Origin: Lactiplantibacillus garii
Lineage (GTDB): Bacteria; Bacillota; Bacilli; Lactobacillales; Lactobacillaceae
Length of the DNA: 32,654 nucleotides
Direction: 5' to 3'
Assembly: GCF_003885105.1 (NCBI RefSeq)
Contig: NZ_QWZQ01000038.1
Coordinates: 1 to 32,654 of the forward strand
The notes below the pieces were generated by a model. It was not told the origin of the DNA. It saw nothing but the letters and a program-made list of their open reading frames with translations, and ran no database searches. The position numbers were made by a program, and so were the translations under genes. Below are positions 3,801 through 29,626 of this stretch, in pieces. Each line of letters opens with the position of its first letter. The stretch's first letter is position 1.

Positions 3801-5225
3801 CTACCGCGCCTTTAATGATGTCATTAATAATTGGTTGACCACTTTCGGGTTGGCCTGGCCACGGGTCTTCTTCATGATCTGACCAACCAAGAAGCCAACC
3901 GCCCGGTCCTTCCCGTTCTTAAAGTCGTCGATCGACTGCTGGTTGTTTTCCAACACTTCGTCAATGATCGGCTGTAACTTCGCCGGGTCCGACAACTGAA
4001 CTAAGCCCTTGTCATTGACCCATTTGACCGGTTCACTCCCGGCCATGATCGCCTTGAAGACCTTCTTCGCGATTTTACTTGAAATCGTTTCGTCGGAAAT
4101 CATCTTAATCATGCCCGCTAAGTTGGCCGGCGTCAAGTCAGTTTGTAACAAACCAACCTTGTTTTCGTTCAAGTAGGCGTTAACGTCCCCTTGCAAGTAG
4201 TTTGAAGCTAGCTTCGGATCCGCACCCTTGGCCACCGTGGCGTCAAAGAAGTCGGACATTTCCTTAGTTTGCGTCAAAACGCCCGCGTCGTAGGCCGTTA
4301 ACCCAAATTCGTTGATGTAGCGTTCACGCCGCGAACCCGGCATTTCCGGAATTTCAGCCTGAACCTTTTTGATCCAGTCGTCTTCGATGTTTAAGGCCGG
4401 AATATCGGGTTCTGGGAAGTAACGGTAATCGTCGCTGCCTTCCTTGACCCGCATCAAAATAGTCTTACCGGTGGTTTCGTCAAACCGGCGGGTCTCTTGT
4501 TGAACCTTACCGCCGGACATCAGAACCCGTTGTTGCCGTTGCTCTTCGTATTCCAACGACTTGCGGACGTAGTTGAAGGAGTTTAAGTTCTTCATTTCGG
4601 TCTTGACCCCGAACTTGTCGGAACCGGCCGGACGAATCGAAATGTTCACGTCGACCCGCATCGAACCTTCTTCCATCTTAACGTCGGACACACCGGTAAA
4701 TTGAATCCGTTGCCGCAACGCTTCACAGTAAGCGTAAGCTTCCTCGGGCGAGTTGATCTCCGGTTTCGAAACAATTTCAATCAGCGGCGTCCCCTGCCGG
4801 TTTAAATCGACGTAGGAGTAGTCGTTTTCGTGGGTGTTTTTACCGGCATCTTCTTCAATGTGCATTTCTTCGATACCGACTTTTTTCTTCTGACCGTCAA
4901 CCTCAATTTCAATCCAGCCGTCGTGAGCAATCGGCTTATCGTGTTGCGTGATTTGGTAAGCCTTCGGGTTATCCGGATAGAAGTAGTTTTTCCGGTCAAA
5001 GTACGTATGTTTTTCAATTTGAGCGTGCAGGGCCGTCGCGGCCTTGATCCCGGCTTCAACCACGCCCTTGTTCGGCGTTGGCAAGACCCCGGGATAGCCC
5101 CAGTCGATCACGTTCGTGTTGGCGTTTGGTTCGGAACCAAATTGCACGGGTGACGGACTAAAGATTTTCGAATTCGTTTTTAATTCAACGTGGACTTCCA
5201 GCCCAATCGTAGTTTCAAAATTCAT
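3801..5225 (-). CDS. gatB: Asp-tRNA(Asn)/Glu-tRNA(Gln) amidotransferase subunit B
   Basis: The tRNA-binding and kinase subunit of GatCAB: it activates the side chain of Glu mischarged on tRNA(Gln), or Asp on tRNA(Asn), so that ammonia from GatA can amidate it. The 474-residue length is normal. The protein opens [19 protein letters not shown] (the GatB signature GLExHxxL). It then has the cradle-domain blocks [18 protein letters not shown] and HIEEDAGK, and ends with the helical YqeY-like tail domain (about 330-474, including [18 protein letters not shown]). Its ATG shares one base with the gatA stop (TAATG), so translation is coupled. It is the last gene of the pcrA operon before a long palindromic repeat. 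Confidence 0.96.
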
Positions 5226-6688
5226 TAGTTAGCACCTCCGACTTTAGGCGTTTGTTGGTGAACATCCGTGGCCTGTTCAAAGGCGTAACCGGCTTTATAA
5301 AGCGTGCTTTCGTCAAACGCTTTCCCAATTAGTTGTAACCCAACTGGTAAGCCGTCCGCAAAGCCCGCTGGAACCGACATCCCTGGTAACCCGGCTAAGT
5401 TGACCGGAATCGTTAAGACGTCGTTCATGTACATCGTGATTGGGTCGGAAATTTCGTCACCAATCTTAAAGGCCGGCGTTGGGGCAACCGGACCCATGAT
5501 CATATCGTAGTCTTCAAAGACCTTGTTAAAATCGTTGATGATCATCGTCCGGACTTGGCCCGCCTTATGGAAGTAGGCGTCGTAGTAACCAGCGGACAGT
5601 GAGAACGTCCCTAACATGATCCGCCGTTTAACTTCGTCCCCGAACCCTTCGGAACGGCTGCGTACGTAAACGTCTTCCAAGTTCTTAACGTCCTTTGCCC
5701 GGAAACCGTAGCGAATACCGTCAAACCGTTGCAAGTTGGACGATGCTTCGGAACTGGCGATGATGTAGTAGGCGGACACGCCGTACTTGCTATTTGGCAG
5801 GGAAACTTCTTCAACGGTCGCGCCGAGTTCTTCAAACTTCTTAACGGCGTTATTGATCACTTCGCGGACCTTGGGATCGATTCCTTCACCCATGTATTCT
5901 TTTGGTAAGGCGATTTTCATGCCCTTAACGTTGCCGTCCAAGCCGGCCGTAAAGTCGGGCACGGCTTGTTTAGACGACGTGCCGTCGTGCTGGTCGTAAC
6001 CGGCAATCATGTTTAAGGCGGCGGCGTTGTCCTTCACGCTGCGAGTTATTGGGCCGATTTGGTCCAGCGAAGAACCAAAGGCGATCAAGCCCCAACGCGA
6101 AACCCGGCCGTACGTTGGCTTCATCCCAACGACCCCGTTAAACGAGGAAGGTTGGCGAATGGAACCCCCAGTATCGGAACCGAACGCGACCGGTACCTGA
6201 CCGGAAGCGACGGCCACGGCCGAACCACCCGACGAACCACCGGGAACCCGGCTAACGTCCCACGGGTTGTGGGTCACTTTAAAGGCGGAGTTTTCCGTCG
6301 ACCCACCCATGGCAAATTCATCCATGTTGTTTTTACCAATAATGATGGCGTCACTGGCACGCATCTTTTCAACAACCGTGGCGTCGTAAACCGGCACGAA
6401 GTTTTCCAACATTTTGGAAGCCGCCGTAGTGGTCAGACCCTTAGTCACAATATTGTCTTTAACCGCGACCGGAATCCCGGCCATCACGTTATCGGGGTTG
6501 ATCCCCTTGGCGTCAATTTCAGCGGCCCGCTTCAACGCGGCGTCTTCGTTTAAGTTTAGGAAGGCCCCGAGTTGCGGGTCAACTTGCCGTAAGTTTGCGA
6601 AAGTGGCCTTAGTCAGCTCGAGTGCGCTGATTTTTTTAGCAACTAAGTCAGCGTGTAAGCTGGTTAAATCTTGGTCGAAATAGTTCAT
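5225..6688 (-). CDS. gatA: Asp-tRNA(Asn)/Glu-tRNA(Gln) amidotransferase subunit A
   Basis: The glutaminase subunit of GatCAB. It hydrolyses glutamine and passes ammonia to the GatB site. It belongs to the amidase-signature family: Lys77 in AVKDNI, the cis-Ser152 in PGGSSGGSA and the nucleophile Ser176 in DTGGSIRQP form the expected Ser-cisSer-Lys triad. At 487 residues it is full length. One-base TAATG overlaps on both sides (with gatC and gatB) indicate coupled translation, which fits the fixed stoichiometry of the complex. Nothing unusual is seen in it. Confidence 0.96.
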
Positions 6689-10281: not shown

Positions 10282-12549
10282 CTAGTCTTGAACTTTTTGA
10301 ATCGGCGCAAACGCCGCTAATAATCGTTTAATGCCTTCCGACTTGAAGGCGATGTCTAATTCGGCATCTTCACCGGCGCCGGTGACTTTAACCACCGTCC
10401 CGGTGCCCCACTTACGGTGCTTGACCTTGTCGCCAATCGACCAGCTATTCTTATCGGCGCCGGTGCCGGCAGCCTTCTTAACCGTTGGCCGGGTGCCGAC
10501 CGGGTTCTTCTTGTAACTTGGGGTAAAGGCCCGCCGTTCGCGACTGTTGCCAAACGGCACGTCCGGTCCGGTACTGCTCTGACCGTCTAAGGTGTTTTCG
10601 TTTTTGATCAAACTCTGATCAATTTCTTCTACGAAACGGGAAGCCGGGTTGTTTTGCCGGCGACCGTACAACATCCGCGAGTACGCGTTGGTCAGGTACA
10701 GTTTCTTTTCGGCCCGAGTGATCCCGACGTAGGCTAAGCGGCGTTCTTCTTCCAGTTCATCTTCGTCCATCATGGCCCGGGAGAGTGGGAAGATCCCGTC
10801 TTCCATCCCAATCATGAAGACCACCGGGAATTCCAGCCCCTTGGCCGCGTGTAACGTCATCAACGTCACGGCCTGTGGTTCCTCTTCCACGTTATCGATA
10901 TCGGAAACCAGTGCCAAGTCGGCTAAGAAGTCCACGAATTTATCGCTGTCCTCGTCTTCGGGTTGGTAACTGTCGTCAAACTGTTTGGTGACCGATAAAA
11001 ATTCTTCGATGTTTTCGATCCGGGTCTGGGCTTCTAAGGACTTGGAAGCCACCTGGTCCTTTAAGACCTTCATGTAGCCGGTCCGGTCCAAGATCTCGTT
11101 GGTCAAGTCGGTCACCGACAAATACTCGCGCATCGCCCGCAACTCGTTCATCGTGCTGGCAAACTTGGCTAAGGAACCCTTGGCCCGCGTGGAGATCCCG
11201 TTGGCCATGTCGACGTTGCTGGCCGCTTCCAACATGGAGTAGCCGGCTTCATCGGCAAATAACCGCAATTTTTCCACGCTGGTTTGACCAATTCCCCGCT
11301 TCGGTTCGTTCACGACCCGTTCAAAGTTCATCGAATCCTGGTCGTTAACGACTAACGTCAAGTAGGACAAAACGTCCCGAATTTCCTTACGGTCGTAGAA
11401 CTTGTTACCCCCGACCATCGTGTAAGGAATGTTAGCCTTAACCAGTGATTCTTCCATGACCCGGGACTGCGCGTTGGTCCGGTATAAAATGGCGAAGTCG
11501 CCGTAACCGAACTTCTTTTCCTGCATGTTTTCCTGGATCTTCGAAATGACAAAGTGGGTTTCGTCGCTTTCACTCTGCCCCCGGTAATAGGAAATCAGGT
11601 CCCCGGTCGTGTTATCGGTCCACAACTTCTTCGGCCGCCGGGTGGTATTGTTATCGATCACGTCGTTGGCTGCCGCTAAAATGTTTTTCGTTGAGCGGTA
11701 ATTTTGTTCCAACATAACGGTGTCGGCCTGCGGATAATCCTTTTCAAAGTCGAGGATGTTTTCCATGTTGGCGCCCCGCCAGCCGTAAATTGACTGGTCG
11801 GCATCCCCGACCACGCAAAGGTTCTTGTACTTGTCGGCTAACATGTTGACCAACGTGTACTGGGCGTTGTTGGTATCTTGGTATTCATCCACGTGGATGT
11901 AGTGGAACTTGTTTTGGTACCATTCCAACGTTTCTTTGTGTTGTTTAAATAACTGAATCGTCAGCATGATCAAGTCGTCAAAGTCGACCGCCTGATCCGC
12001 GGCGAGTTCGCGTTGGTACTGCAAATAAACGTCGGCCACGACGCTTTCAAACGGACTAGCCGCCGCTTCCTTATACATTTCCGGCGTCTGCAGATCGTTC
12101 TTCGCGTTTGAAATGGCGGATAAGATCGAGCGCGGGTCAAACTTCTTGGAATCAATGTTTTGTTCCGTCAAAATCCGTTTGACCAACGTCCGCTGTTCAC
12201 TCGTCCCGGCAATCGTAAAGGCCCGGTTATAGCCGATTTGTTCAATATCGCGGCGTAAGATCCGCACGCAGAGGGCGTGGAAGGTTGAAACCCACACGTC
12301 CTGCGCGGAATCGCCCAACAATTTACCGACCCGTTCACGCATTTCGCGCGCGGCCTTGTTCGTAAACGTAATGGCTAACACGTTCCAGGGATTGACCCCT
12401 TGTTCTTCGATTAAATAAGCTACCCGGTGTGTCAGTACTCGCGTTTTCCCCGAGCCGGCACCGGCCATAATTAGTAGCGGTCCTTCAGTGTCTAAAACGG
12501 CTTCCTGTTGCTTGTCATTCATTCCTGCCAATAGGCTTTCTTTCGACAC
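10282..12549 (-). CDS. pcrA: ATP-dependent DNA helicase PcrA (UvrD/Rep family)
   Basis: SF1A 3'-5' helicase for nucleotide excision repair, rolling-circle plasmid replication and clearing of stalled complexes. Motifs are intact: Q-motif/Walker A (LIMAGAGSGKTRVLTHR), Walker B VDEYQDTN, motif III GDADQSIYGWRGA, motif IV QNYRSTKNIL, and motifs V/VI TLHAAKGLEFPVVF and VGITRAEK. A Tudor-like RNA-polymerase-binding tail lies near the end (WSIGDKVKHRKWGTGTVVKV). The start is uncertain between two GTG codons, at 12549 and 12561. The 12549 choice places GGGTGG at good spacing and gives the usual MSxxSL..GMNDKQ beginning; at 12561 the purine-rich AAAGG would touch the start codon. It is the first gene of the operon. 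Confidence 0.95.
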   Translation of the reverse strand: MSKESLLAGMNDKQQEAVLDTEGPLLIMAGAGSGKTRVLTHRVAYLIEEQGVNPWNVLAITFTNKAAREMRERVGKLLGDSAQDVWVSTFHALCVRILRRDIEQIGYNRAFTIAGTSEQRTLVKRILTEQNIDSKKFDPRSILSAISNAKNDLQTPEMYKEAAASPFESVVADVYLQYQRELAADQAVDFDDLIMLTIQLFKQHKETLEWYQNKFHYIHVDEYQDTNNAQYTLVNMLADKYKNLCVVGDADQSIYGWRGANMENILDFEKDYPQADTVMLEQNYRSTKNILAAANDVIDNNTTRRPKKLWTDNTTGDLISYYRGQSESDETHFVISKIQENMQEKKFGYGDFAILYRTNAQSRVMEESLVKANIPYTMVGGNKFYDRKEIRDVLSYLTLVVNDQDSMNFERVVNEPKRGIGQTSVEKLRLFADEAGYSMLEAASNVDMANGISTRAKGSLAKFASTMNELRAMREYLSVTDLTNEILDRTGYMKVLKDQVASKSLEAQTRIENIEEFLSVTKQFDDSYQPEDEDSDKFVDFLADLALVSDIDNVEEEPQAVTLMTLHAAKGLEFPVVFMIGMEDGIFPLSRAMMDEDELEEERRLAYVGITRAEKKLYLTNAYSRMLYGRRQNNPASRFVEEIDQSLIKNENTLDGQSSTGPDVPFGNSRERRAFTPSYKKNPVGTRPTVKKAAGTGADKNSWSIGDKVKHRKWGTGTVVKVTGAGEDAELDIAFKSEGIKRLLAAFAPIQKVQD

Positions 12550-12586
12550 GCTGTTCGCCACCCTTTCTAAAAATCAGTCAACAAAT

Positions 12587-12595: not shown

Positions 12596-12740
12596 AATTT
12601 TCGGCGTGCTTGCTGGTTTTTAAGGCGCTTTCCCGGACATTCCGCCCGACTTATTTTTGAAACCGTGTTCGCGTTTGTTCGGTCAGGTACGTTGGCCGTC
12701 AAAACGTTAAATTTTGGTCAAAAATAAAGATTTTTTATTA

Positions 12741-12950
12741 GCGCTGATATCCTCAAAGTTAGCGCTACCTTTCCGCCGTCCGGGCGGCCGCGATTGGTCT
12801 GGAGCGCGGTGGACACAGCTTGAAGCCAAGCACACCCGCTTGTCTTTAAGTCTGGTCTTTCACTAGGCCGGGAAAATACCCCGACCAAGTGAAATTTCAC
12901 CGCTGAGCCCATCGCGACACGCCCTCCCGGCTAAACTAGTCGTTGGCGCC
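12741..12950 (-). repeat. Structured intergenic element, left copy (minus orientation)
   Basis: Read on the minus strand it starts GGCGCCAACGA and ends near GAGGATATCAGCGC. It is a diverged homologue of the element at 13172-13472. Shared blocks, in order, are GGCGCCAACGA, GTTTA.GCCGGGAG, GGTGAAATTT, GCTCCAG..CAATC, CGGACGGCGGAAAG and GAGGAT.TCAGC. It contains a hairpin (TTTCAC...GTGAAA arms with a GC-rich neck, + strand 12858-12894) and a second one with CTTAAAG/CTTCAAG and CAAGC/GCTTG arms. It has no convincing reading frame. It may be a structured RNA or a mobile palindromic element. Confidence 0.7.
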
Positions 12951-13171
12951 GTGTGAAGTGGGTATACCTTGTTATTAATTAGCTTTTACTTTAAAAATTG
13001 CTGTTGCGAAACTGAATATAAAATTAAGCTGATTATCATTGGCGTTAAGCTGAATATCTAATTATCAAAGCAATGCGATTTGCTGAATGCGGAAATACCG
13101 CAATTTAAATTTCAGGGATTGGTATCAAGAACAGAACAGCCGTTAAAACACCACGATTGTGTGCCAGACGT
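12951..13171. other. AT-rich spacer with direct repeats between the two structured elements
   Basis: No gene is seen. The spacer is far more AT-rich than its flanks. It holds a direct repeat TTAAGCTGAwTATC at 13024-13037 and 13045-13058 (one mismatch, 21-base period) and a further CTGAATATA at 13012-13020. It also holds a small perfect hairpin TGCGG-AAATA-CCGCA near 13089. A 21-base period corresponds to two helical turns, as in direct-repeat sites of some response regulators. I could not identify a convincing promoter beside the repeats. Confidence 0.4.
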
Positions 13172-13472
13172 GGCGCCAACGAGCAGTTTAAGCCGGGAGC
13201 GACAGCGCTGATGAGCTCAGTGGTGAAATTTGACTTACGGTCGGTTTTTTCGACCGTTACGTCAAAGGCCGAGGTTGAAGACCGGCGCGGGTTTCGGCGG
13301 GCTCCAACTCGTGCCCACCACGCTCCAGCTCAATCAGCGCCGAGCGGGAGGCGGGGATGACCACTAACTCAGAAACTATCAGCGCCAATCCCGTTGTTTT
13401 TTCTAAAATCGGCCAGCCCAATCGCGGCCAACCGGACGGCGGAAAGTACCCACCAACTTAGAGGATTTCAGC
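13172..13472 (+). repeat. Structured intergenic element, right copy (plus orientation)
   Basis: Begins GGCGCCAACGAGCAG and ends GAGGATTTCAGC. It is homologous to the left copy but carries roughly 85 extra bases near 13330-13415, with partly duplicated sequence (GCTCCAGCTCAATC and GGCCAGCCCAATC). Its first hairpin (13229-13266) has arms TTTGAC/GTCAAA and ACGGTCG/CGACCGT around a T-rich loop. The left copy has TTTCAC/GTGAAA at the same place, so a C-G pair has become G-C with pairing kept. A second stem has arms GGTTGAAG and CTCCAAC. No gene is seen. Confidence 0.7.
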
Positions 13473-13523: not shown

Positions 13524-14696
13524 CTATTCTTCAGAATAATCGGTGGTTGCGGCCGCACTGGGGCCGTTGAAGTTCCAGATGTTGGTATCGTCGATTTGGT
13601 CGAGGGCGTCCTTGACCGTTGGGGCTTCAACAAGGACGTGGCCGGCAACCGGGGCCTTGTCCGCTTGTAACAGCGTCCGGTGGTAGAAATTAAAGAACCA
13701 GTTGGTTTTAATTTGCCACTGGGTACGGATGCCGCTTTCCTGGGCCGGCGTGAAGTAGACGGCGACCACGGGCATCAGTTGTTTGACCGGCATTAGTGGT
13801 AGGCCGGCCACCGCCCGGAGGTGTTGTTCGGCCATGCTGATGTTGGTGGCGCGGTCGAAAACGTAGCCGGCTTGGTGCATGGCCGGCACGATTCGTTTAA
13901 CGTAGAGGTTGCCGCTCTTCGTGAGGAAGAAGGCAACTTCAAAGATCCCAGTGTAACTGAGGTTATCACTAATTTCCTTGGTGATCCGTACCATTTCGTC
14001 GTTGACGGCGCCGTCAATTTGGGCCGGCACGATCGTGGCTAGTAGTTCGTGGTCACGGTAACGATTTTCCACGGTGGGGAAAAACTCGGTGCTGGTCGCG
14101 TTCTTGGCGACAAACACGGAGAGTTCCTTATCGTAAGGAATCAGAGATTCCAGTAAATAGGTCCCCCAGTCCAGGAGGTCGGCGGCCTTAACGATGTCCG
14201 ACTGCGTTTTGATCACCAGTTGGCGGTTTTGACCGAGTCCCTTTTGAATGGGTTTTAAAATGCTGGGGTAACCGATCGAGCCAATCGCCTGGTAGACGTC
14301 GTCTAAGCTGACGATGGTGGCGGACGGGGCCACGTTTAAATTAAGCTGGCTGAAAAACGCCCGTTCCAGCGAACGGTCCTGCATGATTTCCAAGGCGTCC
14401 GCGCCTTGCGGAACCCGGGTGTGGGCCGCAAGGAAGTTTACGACCGACGCATCGACCGTTTCGGACTCGTAAGTCACGACGTCGCAGCGTTCGGCGAAAT
14501 TTTGTAGTTGTTGCTGGTCATTGAGGGCCCCGACAACGCGAAAGTCGGCCAGTTCCATGGTCTCGGTATTTTCATTGTCGCCGTAAACGCCGACGTTAAT
14601 GCCGGCATTGCGCGCCGCAATCACCAAGCCAACACCATTAGTACTACTTCCAATGATGCCAAGCGTACCACCTGGGTTTAAAATCGAGTTGTCCAC
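13524..14696 (-). CDS. PurK-like ATP-grasp protein with degenerate active site
   Basis: The 390 residues align along their length with N5-carboxyaminoimidazole ribonucleotide synthase (PurK): QDRSLERAFFSQLNL, LESLIPYDKELSVFVAKN, FFPTVENRYRDHELLATIVPAQI and QHLRAVAGLPL. Key positions are altered. The usual GYDGxGQ loop is shortened to KGLGQN. The first metal-binding Glu (MECF in E. coli) is Ala255. The motif NELAPRVHNSGH has become KRIVPAMHQAGY (267-278), losing the second Glu, the Arg, Asn and final His. The N-terminal GGGQLG is also changed. No purE or other purine biosynthesis gene is adjacent. The start is a GTG with AGGG eight bases upstream, and a good terminator follows, so the gene looks intact and expressed. 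It is probably a PurK-derived protein with a different substrate or a non-catalytic role. Confidence 0.75.
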   Translation of the reverse strand: MDNSILNPGGTLGIIGSSTNGVGLVIAARNAGINVGVYGDNENTETMELADFRVVGALNDQQQLQNFAERCDVVTYESETVDASVVNFLAAHTRVPQGADALEIMQDRSLERAFFSQLNLNVAPSATIVSLDDVYQAIGSIGYPSILKPIQKGLGQNRQLVIKTQSDIVKAADLLDWGTYLLESLIPYDKELSVFVAKNATSTEFFPTVENRYRDHELLATIVPAQIDGAVNDEMVRITKEISDNLSYTGIFEVAFFLTKSGNLYVKRIVPAMHQAGYVFDRATNISMAEQHLRAVAGLPLMPVKQLMPVVAVYFTPAQESGIRTQWQIKTNWFFNFYHRTLLQADKAPVAGHVLVEAPTVKDALDQIDDTNIWNFNGPSAAATTDYSEE

Positions 14697-26680: not shown

Positions 26681-29626
26681 ATGAACAGAAAACCGCTAAC
26701 CAAGCCGGTCATTAACCGGTATAAGATGTTTAAGTACGGTAAGCATTGGGTCTACGCGGGAATCACGTTAGCTAGTGTGGGGACAACGCTATTACTGACG
26801 ACCACCGCCCAAGCAGCTGCCACCAATCCAAACGACGCGACGCCTAACGCCGCCGTCGCCGCACAACCGACCACGGCCGCGCTGACGACCGCAGCCGTGA
26901 CGGACGGGGCCGCCGCGCCGGCAACAACGCCGGAAGCGACCGTTCCTGACGCCGAAGGAAACGGGGACGGGACGACACCAACGGACAATCAGGGGACGAC
27001 TAATGATGTCCCAACCACCCCGGGTTCTGAAAACAACCTGCCCACTAGCCAGGACGGTTCCCAAGCCGACAACCAGCGCCCTTCCGATGCCGGAACGGCG
27101 AGCGACGCCGGGCAACCGTCGCAAGGCAGTACAGACGGCTCAAGCGAAGATACGGGTGCAAGCGCCGCGCAGCCATCCGACGGCACCGTTAATTCCGACG
27201 CGGCATCGGACGACCAATCTGGCGATGCCACGCCCGCGGACAGTTCCGAAGTCACGGATTCATCAACGGCCGGTACGCCGGCAACTTCAACGAACGGTAC
27301 TGACCAGTCGGAAGCGGCCACCACGCCAACCCTAAAGCGCCCGGCAACCGTGTCGGCCGTGGCGACGAGTGCACCGCTAACGACGGCGGCGTCCCACGGT
27401 CCCGTCTACACCACCGACGACAAAACGTTGTATAACGACGGCAAAGTCACCATTGAACAAACCGGGCCGTACGCCATTACGTGGAAACAGGTTTCCAATA
27501 CGACCACCACGGAGACCCGCACCGTCACGCTGGACGCCAGCGACTTCGTTAACCTAGTCAAAACGATCAACGACGCGACGGGAAACACCGCCAAAATTGC
27601 TGCGGCCAAGGCGAAGTATCAAGAAATGCTGGCCCAGTTAAAGGCCCTGCCAAGCAAAATTGCCAGCCAACTCGTCGGCAACCTGCTTTACCAAGTGGTC
27701 TTTACCGGAACCGGGTCCCAGGCGCTCTCCAATTTCCGGACGGCGTTAGACCCGACTCGTTACGACATTTCCAATACTTGGACTGGGCTTGATCCGGTGG
27801 CCTACGCCGCCGACCGGGCTGCCGCCGAAACTTACTACCCGGCCGCCGTGACTTGGTACAACAACGTCGCTAAGGAAACCTGGTCTTTGCCAGAGTACAA
27901 CCAGCCGACGCAGTACGTCCGGGCGACCTACATTCAAAACGGCGACGCCACCAAGACGGTCGTCATTGGTCAGGGGTGGACGGAACGTCCCGACTGGATC
28001 GGTTACGTGTCTAAAATTTGGTACGACATGGGTTACAACATTTTAATGCCGAGTCAGCGGGGCCAATTTCTGAGCGACGGCAACGACATGACCTTCGGCT
28101 ACCAGGACAAGTACGACTGGCTCAACTGGGTTCGCTTAGTTGACGAACGAAACGGCAAAGATAGCCAGGTCGTGTTCTACGGGCAGTCGTTAGGTGCCGA
28201 CACGGTGATCGAGGCGGCGTCCGTACCGGGCCTATCCAAATCGGTCAAGGCCGTGATCGCCGATGCCGGTTACGCGACCCTGCCAGAATTAGGGAGTTCG
28301 CTGTATAACAAGGCGGTCGCCGCCGTTTCGACCAAGCTTCAATCGGTGGGCTTACCAGCCATTACCAGCATCCCGTTCTTGTCGTACGACCAAGTGTTGG
28401 CCGTCATCAACAACCGTTTAATGAAACAACAGGGCTTTAGCATTGACGACGTATCCGGCGTGAGTGCCGCTAGCAAGGTCACGGTACCGCTAATGCTGAT
28501 CCACACCGAAGACGATGCCTTTATTCCGTACACCCAGTCCTTAGAACTGGCCGCCGCGAATAATTCCAAAATCAAAACGGTATGGATCCTGCCCGGCGAA
28601 GTGGGCGGACACGCCGGTGCCAATAACGCCGTGTTGCAATATACCCAGCACATTAAGGACTTCTTAGCCGAAGCCACGGCAACCGCCACCGACGTGGATA
28701 CGGGCGAAGCAACGGTACCCGATGGAACGACCACTACTCCGGATGAAACTACCGCTACGGACGGTCACACGACCCCCGAAACTCAGCCCGACGCGGGTAC
28801 CACTGGTCAAACAACCACGAGCGGTCAAACCGGCAGCCAGGCGACTACAAACAACGGTCAGCCGAACGGGACTGACCAACCGAAGAACCAGACACCAACT
28901 GAGACTGATAATGCGGCCGTCACTGACCAACCGTCTGCGGACAACGGGCAGACCAGTCACCCAACGATCACCGTGTCCGAGAGTACCAGCACCGATCAGT
29001 CAACTGATCAATCGTTGACTTCGACGACGGCACCACGGACCGGTACGGTTGAGCAGACTCCTAACGCAACGACTGCGCCATCAATAACGCCGGGTACCAC
29101 GACGCTGGCCCAAGCCGAGCCCGAGGACGTCGACGCACCGACGAACCCGGTCACCTTAGCACCAACGACTACCAAGGCGGCCACGCCAACTCAGCCAAGT
29201 ACGGCTGTCGCATTAAACGTGTTAACGGACACCAACGCGAGTCCCGTGAGTGCCGCGGCCATCGCAGCCGCCCACAATTTGAACGCTTCAACGGTCAAAC
29301 CAATTCAAAACGCCGACCAGTTGATCACTCAGGATCACAGCGGTTCGGTCGTCACGGCCAGTTTGATGGTTGACGAAAGTACGCCGGTGGACGCGACAAC
29401 GACGCTGGCCACCGTTGCGCCCGTTGCCACCACCGCCGTCGTGACCCCGACCCCCTTAGTGGATCACACGACCGCCCCCACCAGCGCGGCCGCGGATCAC
29501 GCTAAAGCCGCGACGTTACCGCAAACGTCCGAACGGCCACAATCGTGGTTAGCCGCGTTCGGTGCGAGTTTAGCCGCCCTGGCGACCGGACTGTGGGCCA
29601 GCTTGCGGCGCCACTTCAACCGTTGA
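26681..29626 (+). CDS. LPQTSE-anchored surface protein with alpha/beta-hydrolase core
   Basis: A 981-residue secreted and wall-anchored protein. The N-terminus YKMFKYGKHWVYAGITLASVGT fits the KxYKxGKxW-type signal, with cleavage probably after AQA near residue 46. Residues about 47-245 are Ala/Thr/Ser/Asp-rich and low-complexity. Residues about 250-675 form a globular part holding an alpha/beta-hydrolase fold: nucleophile Ser503 in YGQSLGAD, acid Asp611 or Asp612 in IHTEDDAFIP, and His644 in GGHAGA. Another Thr/Asp/Gln-rich linker follows (about 676-940). The end has LPQTSE (946-951), a hydrophobic segment and RRHFNR, a sortase signal of the LPQTxE form seen in L. plantarum. It is probably a surface esterase or acyl-hydrolase, but the substrate is unknown. 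The Shine-Dalgarno GAGGAG lies six bases upstream. No sortase gene is nearby. Confidence 0.85.
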   Translation: MNRKPLTKPVINRYKMFKYGKHWVYAGITLASVGTTLLLTTTAQAAATNPNDATPNAAVAAQPTTAALTTAAVTDGAAAPATTPEATVPDAEGNGDGTTPTDNQGTTNDVPTTPGSENNLPTSQDGSQADNQRPSDAGTASDAGQPSQGSTDGSSEDTGASAAQPSDGTVNSDAASDDQSGDATPADSSEVTDSSTAGTPATSTNGTDQSEAATTPTLKRPATVSAVATSAPLTTAASHGPVYTTDDKTLYNDGKVTIEQTGPYAITWKQVSNTTTTETRTVTLDASDFVNLVKTINDATGNTAKIAAAKAKYQEMLAQLKALPSKIASQLVGNLLYQVVFTGTGSQALSNFRTALDPTRYDISNTWTGLDPVAYAADRAAAETYYPAAVTWYNNVAKETWSLPEYNQPTQYVRATYIQNGDATKTVVIGQGWTERPDWIGYVSKIWYDMGYNILMPSQRGQFLSDGNDMTFGYQDKYDWLNWVRLVDERNGKDSQVVFYGQSLGADTVIEAASVPGLSKSVKAVIADAGYATLPELGSSLYNKAVAAVSTKLQSVGLPAITSIPFLSYDQVLAVINNRLMKQQGFSIDDVSGVSAASKVTVPLMLIHTEDDAFIPYTQSLELAAANNSKIKTVWILPGEVGGHAGANNAVLQYTQHIKDFLAEATATATDVDTGEATVPDGTTTTPDETTATDGHTTPETQPDAGTTGQTTTSGQTGSQATTNNGQPNGTDQPKNQTPTETDNAAVTDQPSADNGQTSHPTITVSESTSTDQSTDQSLTSTTAPRTGTVEQTPNATTAPSITPGTTTLAQAEPEDVDAPTNPVTLAPTTTKAATPTQPSTAVALNVLTDTNASPVSAAAIAAAHNLNASTVKPIQNADQLITQDHSGSVVTASLMVDESTPVDATTTLATVAPVATTAVVTPTPLVDHTTAPTSAAADHAKAATLPQTSERPQSWLAAFGASLAALATGLWASLRRHFNR

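Follow-up and report, generated by a model that had tools for sequence, protein, structure and literature searches.

A dispersed, mobile-looking intergenic repeat with two outward-facing structured arms in Lactiplantibacillus garii and other Lactobacillaceae

The window analysed here is the whole 32,654-nucleotide contig NZ_QWZQ01000038.1 of Lactiplantibacillus garii, in which two genes that we take to be pcrA and a purK-like gene are separated by a gap of 962 nt with two divergent arms of approximately 165 nt inside it. The features of this region are:

10282..12561, minus strand: flanking gene, an ORF call with orthologues found, which we take to be pcrA (UvrD-type helicase)
12741..12764, no strand: left strand of the outer helix P0 (GCGCTGATATCCTCAAAGTTAGCG; inverted repeat I3), with predicted pairing to 13362-13385 in the fold of 12725-13400
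12765..12930, minus strand: arm A, a three-way-junction element reading leftward (covariance model R1, 147.6 bits, full length)
12858..12894, minus strand: hairpin H1 of arm A, TTTCAC...GTGAAA (arms 12858-12863/12889-12894; helix 4 of the covariation test)
12931..12950, minus strand: conserved 5' tail of arm A (GGCGCCAACGACTAGTTTAG; inverted repeat I4), kept in the five pairs compared
12951..13171, no strand: AT-rich spacer between the arms, 221 nt, 35% G+C, poorly conserved among copies
13172..13192, plus strand: conserved 5' tail of arm B (GGCGCCAACGAGCAGTTTAAG; repeat search and pair comparison)
13193..13362, plus strand: arm B, a three-way-junction element reading rightward (R1, 136.8 bits, full length)
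13229..13266, plus strand: hairpin H1 of arm B, TTTGAC...GTCAAA (arms 13229-13234/13261-13266; helix 4 of the covariation test)
13362..13385, no strand: right strand of P0 (CACTAACTCAGAAACTATCAGCGC), pairing with 12741-12764 in the predicted fold
13413..13472, plus strand: separate truncated third fragment, the 3' end of an A-type arm, with an 82% inverted match to 12743-12802 over 60 nt
13524..14696, minus strand: flanking gene, an ORF call and a conserved neighbour of pcrA, presumably purK-like

A sequence-only reading of this region had described two diverged inverted copies of one element that face outward across an AT-rich spacer. Both parts of that description hold, as the arms are 70% identical over 224 nt as inverted copies (repeat search, I1-I4) and the spacer has a G+C content of 35%, compared with 61-62% for the arms and 52% for the whole window. 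The boundaries on the right had to be redrawn: the plus-strand copy, which had been taken to extend from 13172 to 13472, is present and ends near 13385, and the block described as conserved near its end (GGCGGAAAG) lies in the third fragment, arm B reading GGCGGGGATG at the equivalent place. The unit from 12741 to 13385 measures 645 nt, its two outer ends are predicted to pair with each other (fold of 12725-13400), and each arm is a full three-way junction, beyond the hairpin and second stem originally recognised. A simple scan of the purK-like/pcrA gap located one promoter-like site (1.0 expected) and four terminator-like sites (1.5 expected), an excess that is no proof of function; the latter include a purK-side hairpin at 13517-13494 and a site just past arm B at 13380-13396. 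A coding interpretation was rejected: ORFs of 64 and 67 aa overlap the conserved blocks, and their frame is apparently not kept (by-eye reading of the alignment). Identity with tRNA, tmRNA or an Rfam family was likewise set aside, as the searches gave none; no gathering-level Rfam match was obtained for the window and eight further loci, and a relaxed search of the gap returned only hits with E values of 0.94 and 3.2. Elsewhere in the window, a 981-aa ORF (26681-29626) is surface-protein-like by eye, with Ser/Thr-rich low-complexity parts, a start that we take to be of the KxYKxGKxW type and an end presumably of the LPQTS type.

The fold was examined by aligning 48 arms drawn from 15 genomes (alignment A1); the structure was itself predicted on A1, a procedure that favours structure. 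It comprises an outer stem, a junction stem beside CTCAGYGGTGAAATTT, hairpin H1, a second hairpin and then GTTCCAGC. Pairing was observed in 93.8% of cells compared with 74.1% in shuffled alignments, none of 500 shuffles scoring as high; at least one double change occurs in 35 of the 39 pairs, with 373 double-change cells as against 105 after shuffling; and sliding the partners caused pairing to fall to 31.6-45.1%. The change in H1 between the two window arms, from TTTCAC/GTGAAA to TTTGAC/GTCAAA, had been read from the letters as compensatory. At the H1 pair of columns 41/78, all 48 arms keep a pair (C-G in 24, G-C in 11, U-A in 11 and A-U in two) and it is never broken; the compensatory change is not due to chance. 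The second stem, previously noted as kept, covaries in these homologues (columns 83-95/130-142), as does the junction stem (columns 29-34/144-150), and the loop blocks CTCAGYGGTGAAATTT and GTTCCAGC are conserved in sequence across species. Furthermore, the same branched fold was obtained from the arms of genome G015, 48 of 50 of which are absent from A1.

A typical unit consists of two divergent structured arms of approximately 160-210 nt, separated by an AT-rich spacer and closed by an outer helix. In G015, 56 matches to R1 resolve into 26 divergent (minus-plus) pairs and four solos at 30 loci, with no pair in the other orientation and a median gap of 274 nt. Similarly, the 91 matches of G010 form 35 minus-plus pairs and 21 solos, all 35 detected pairs being divergent, and each pair carries exactly one B-length arm (173-178 nt), a regularity matched by none of 10,000 length-class shuffles. 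The partners of these B arms, in a classification that rests on match length only, are 25 'A' arms (17 strong, eight weak or partial) and ten C arms of approximately 206 nt. The rule is less clear in G001, where 105 loci (E<=0.01) yield 29 divergent pairs, one tandem pair and 75 solos, and many pair partners are weak matches; tandem arms are also present in L061 and G151, and the pairs at L011 and L023, which have a longer gap, hold or adjoin unrelated genes. The helix equivalent to P0 covaries copy by copy in G015: the outer ends, which lie approximately 60-107 nt beyond the arms, form inverted repeats whose two sides agree in any one copy and vary from copy to copy, with both-side changes at 14 of 21 positions over 22 copies (22 of the 26 pairs; L120, L128, L131 and L141 had no clear outer repeat and were omitted).

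Several variants of this layout were noted. In six of the 26 G015 pairs the spacer is approximately 115 nt above the median (gaps of 382-394 nt), and that of L130 contains a 24-bp hairpin (positions 304-361 of the folded stretch), perhaps a nested mini-element. The arm at L066:5532-5737 (206 nt) has a large extra stem by eye and resembles the G010 C arms. At the camS-gatC gap of L071, at L218:2406-2458 and at L217:2939-3147, collapsed units consist mainly of outer ends lying close together, as if the arms had been deleted between repeats.

The window pair is one of many, with 31 R1 matches at E<=0.01 in its own genome. At this threshold, R1 matches 19 of the 21 genomes from the genus, all but G018 and G019, and does so more than 100 times in seven, namely 119 in G005 and 128 to at least 140 in G001, G004, G008, G012, G016 and G017, where the counts for G004, G012, G016 and G017 are lower bounds (all 140 scored candidates matched). 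A covariance model search of the Lactobacillaceae, which had been proposed as a check, identified arms in 56 of 201 genomes and 12 of 40 genera (E<=0.001 with stricter filters), 49 of the 56 genomes lying outside the genus. The units are intergenic in that none of 42 loci overlaps an ORF of at least 130 aa (mechanical ORF calls); one arm lies between camS and gatC (L070), and the L122 unit has a TATAAT-like box on one side and a start codon on the other, both read by eye.

Occupancy of the purK-pcrA junction varies between species. A divergent pair is present in Limosilactobacillus (L088; 53.2 and 92.9 bits), a strong pair in L. songbeiensis, a stronger arm together with a weak one (19-38 bits) in L. 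nangangensis, L. pingfangensis and L. plantarum EGD-AQ4, and a single arm in L. modestisalitolerans. In L. plantarum EGD-AQ4 (L066, 14 kb) the pair is located at 4981-5146 (minus, 19.2 bits) and 5532-5737 (plus, 68.2 bits), and there is an additional arm at 78-283. The gap measures only 164-185 nt in L. plajomi, L. daowaiensis and L. mudanjiangensis, compared with 962 nt in the window, and in four other species it spans 251-387 nt with no match to R1. The junction has been filled by different members, because the gaps of 802 and 623 nt in an uncultured relative and in L. xiangfangensis, whose PcrA proteins are 97% and 96% identical to that of the window, respectively, hold only very weak matches (17.7 and 15.8 bits). 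The purK-pcrA gaps of L064 and L110 look structured and have almost no similarity to the window arms despite 96-97% PcrA identity, which suggests replacement or very fast turnover.

Comparison of orthologous sites revealed presence/absence differences. While 17 of 30 G015 loci share a flank with a G010 element locus (three of these via one flank only), 13 do not; the L122 unit interrupts AACTAAATAGA/GTGGG, which is continuous at the empty G010 site, and the L134 unit is absent at the orthologous sites of G010, G012 and G016. Some plantarum-group units have IS982-type ends, which read ACGC[A/G]TTGTGCTAGTTA. Exact flank repeats of at least 7 nt occur at eight of 32 G010/G015 loci (0.19 expected) and are lacking at 24. 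When anchored on AC...GT ends, exact abutting repeats of 7-9 nt were found at five of 17 loci, all in G010 (0 in 500 shuffles); allowing one mismatch raises this to eight of 17 (shuffle mean 0.12, maximum 2), the other nine having none. According to PMC7335449, the IS982 family is characterised by 5'-AC ends and by direct repeats whose length varies, and it includes ISLpl4 of L. plantarum. An intact IS982-family element (NF033520, 6e-70) with the ends ACCCGTTGTGCTAGTTG is present in G010 (L227:2872-3834, on the 49-kb contig G010:C4). Two further copies, whose ends are the same or nearly the same as those of the repeat units, may be ISLpl4-like: one is split over two frames, carries exactly the unit end ACGCATTGTGCTAGTTA and has a 9-bp duplication (L235, G016:C1:194126-194832), and the other has one internal stop, ACGCGTTGTGCTAGTTA at both ends and a 7-bp duplication (L230, G004:C22).

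The sequence-only reading had named a match to the ends of a known insertion sequence as an outcome that would overturn it; such ends were found for plantarum-group sister units and not for the window copy. Around units, IS982-type ends were seen only in G010, G012, G015 and G016, with a weak instance in L066; loci from 11 further genomes showed none, with one or two loci covered in ten of these. The L013 unit of G016 has them, and ten other loci from other species show no clear end repeat. In the L. garii genome, no IS982-type end was found in 17 element loci (57 kb) and no IS982 transposase match was obtained; the flanks of 12741/13385 show neither such an end nor a duplication, and nothing clear was visible by eye at the ends of a second subfamily in this genome. 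IS982 content does not track copy number, as G008 has 134 arm matches and no IS982 match, and G012 has none above the cut-off. G001, G003, G004 and G009 contain IS982 copies with similar ends, yet the few units examined there lack them. IS982 copies were also noted in G019, which has no arm match. An autonomous version was sought among 13 of the 47 G010 end-pattern matches; a single intact IS982 (L227) was present, no pair of arms was found, and the remainder were ends that stood alone or had collapsed. Plasmid and phage collections gave no match to the single query used, the L036 unit. A REP/RAYT-type mobiliser was rejected, the Y1 transposase being absent from the element-rich G001, G004, G009, G010 and G015 and present in the element-free G018 and G019.

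The initial proposal of a structured non-coding RNA is borne out as regards its conserved unpaired blocks and covarying stems (48 arms), and not as regards RNA genes special to this locus: the pair belongs to an intergenic repeat that is dispersed, looks mobile and is present in some species and absent from others at a given site. The family as observed combines the arm structure, mostly divergent pairs, intergenic placement at the loci examined and orthologous sites that are empty; plantarum-group units add IS982-type ends, some of them with target duplications. We consider it probable that the unit is MITE-like and mobile and carries two outward-facing structured RNA modules. They would have spread by IS982-family (ISLpl4-like) transposition, carried along as MITE-like passengers. 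The window copy may be an old member of a sister subfamily whose IS982-type ends were lost or never present; its own spread by this route is putative.

The unit might instead act as DNA, namely as a cruciform or topological site whose extruded hairpins bind nucleoid proteins or gyrase, transcription being incidental; this reading is possible, although we hold it to be rather unlikely. It would fit the outer helix of G015, which covaries without strand bias (G-U 21, A-C 15), and the arms, which cross-pair as stably as they fold alone (local junction folding was better in 12 of 23 units, i.e. 22 of the 26 G015 pairs plus the window unit). Units of the L. garii genome (G000) also lie in convergent gene gaps at eight of 11 loci, the other three being tandem, compared with 14 of 61 background gaps; this count covers 12 loci, 11 with both neighbours, and leaves out the fragment-only L045 and L052-L055 as well as the window pair, addition of which (tandem) gives eight of 12. 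However, the 30 G015 unit gaps (10 convergent, 13 tandem, seven divergent) are not clearly above background in their convergent share. Furthermore, both outward-read arms prefer G-U over A-C, which is not predicted by DNA extrusion. The G-U:A-C ratio is 100:29 in A1 in the outward sense; for the union of pairs it is 100:75 in A1, 42:24 in G015 arm A and 88:31 in G015 arm B; and for pairs predicted by the folds of both strands it is 35:18 (a weaker signal in A1), 11:0 and 6:3, respectively (50 of the 56 G015 arms, the six weakest being left out). Both arms look selected in the outward sense, the unbiased counts being small, and the outward folds of G015 are more stable than their complements (-63.0 vs -52.3; -70.8 vs -51.5).

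Functional divergent small RNAs, i.e. trans-acting regulators selected at each site and spread by duplication rather than transposition, would account for the unpaired blocks conserved in the 48-arm alignment, but such an origin seems improbable given that seven genomes have more than 100 matches each, that orthologous sites differ in presence/absence, that sister units show target-site duplications and IS-type ends, that promoter-like sites in the window gap are at chance level and that two congeners have no match. Least likely of all, the covariation could be a by-product of quasi-palindrome correction by template switching rather than of selection on the fold, as the outer repeats match copy by copy over approximately 20 bp and differ between copies, but that process gives Watson-Crick pairs on both strands, against the G-U:A-C counts of the arms (100:29, or 35:18 for both-fold pairs), and the loop blocks keep their sequence from species to species.

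Judged by its published description rather than its sequence, the L. plantarum supermotif (LPSM) is probably the same unit. LPSM is described as a transcribed, stable, cruciform intergenic element of 800-1000 nt, present in many copies and reportedly specific to L. plantarum (Wels et al. 2009, as relayed second hand in PMC5643018). Its cruciform nature accords with the DNA-level reading and its transcription and stability with that of small RNAs. Both LPSM and the present unit are cruciform-like, here with an outer helix and arms. They would also agree in being large, intergenic and multi-copy, as far as the three arms in the 14 kb of L. plantarum EGD-AQ4 go; the reported length compares with 516-1041 nt for the 32 G010/G015 units with both ends and 645 nt for the window unit. 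The reported absence of LPSM from other Lactobacillus species contrasts with an arm family that reaches 19 of the 21 genomes of the genus and 12 of the 40 genera sampled. Covarying three-way junctions and IS982-type ends in one group are additions to that description. Our searches of the open-access literature found no account of the element beyond the second-hand mention of LPSM, and a term search of a stem-loop family list (PMC2267715) and a MITE review (PMC10969869) did not return the word plantarum.

The units resemble IS982/ISLpl4-derived MITEs in their 5'-AC ends, the shared end ACGC[A/G]TTGTGCTAGTTA and direct repeats of 7-9 bp, but no transposase remnant was noticed inside them, their interior consists of two structured arms, and such ends were seen in plantarum-group units only. 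BIME/REP elements are intergenic, occur in many copies and consist of inverted pairs of structured units; binding of their hairpins by nucleoid proteins or gyrase has been proposed, and they are thought to keep insertions harmless or to stabilise transcripts. Intergenic placement, copy number and inverted structured pairs are common to both, although the arms described here are several times longer, have a branched fold and lack a link to a Y1 transposase. With Rfam families the arms share the nature of a structured intergenic RNA, but they have no gathering-level match among them. New here are the covarying three-way junctions, the rule that arms pair facing outward, the closing helix that varies in step within each copy, the range across the genus and the family and, for one group, the connection with IS982.

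Returning to the MITE-like mobile unit, its folds would act as RNA, because the outward-read arms both prefer G-U over A-C. Whichever way the unit inserted, its outward-facing arms mean that read-through in either direction produces one fold in the correct orientation on the side where transcription leaves. By analogy with REP/BIME, such an outward fold would keep the insertion harmless or stabilise the transcript. A more specific form of this idea, which we put forward tentatively and rate as unlikely, if less so than the small RNA reading, is a mobile, orientation-proof RNA device in which the sense three-way junction acts on the polymerase or the transcript so that leaders and operons are not silenced; its action could be processive antitermination, insulation or 3'-end stabilisation.

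A structured element with no Rfam match exceeds 100 matches in seven of 21 genomes of a genus widely used in food and found in the gut. How the repeat came to be so common, and whether its folds act on transcription, can be approached through the rule of pairing, the helix that closes each copy and the IS982-type ends, all of which are testable. If the RNA device is real, it would represent a class of structured RNA that makes a transposable unit tolerable.
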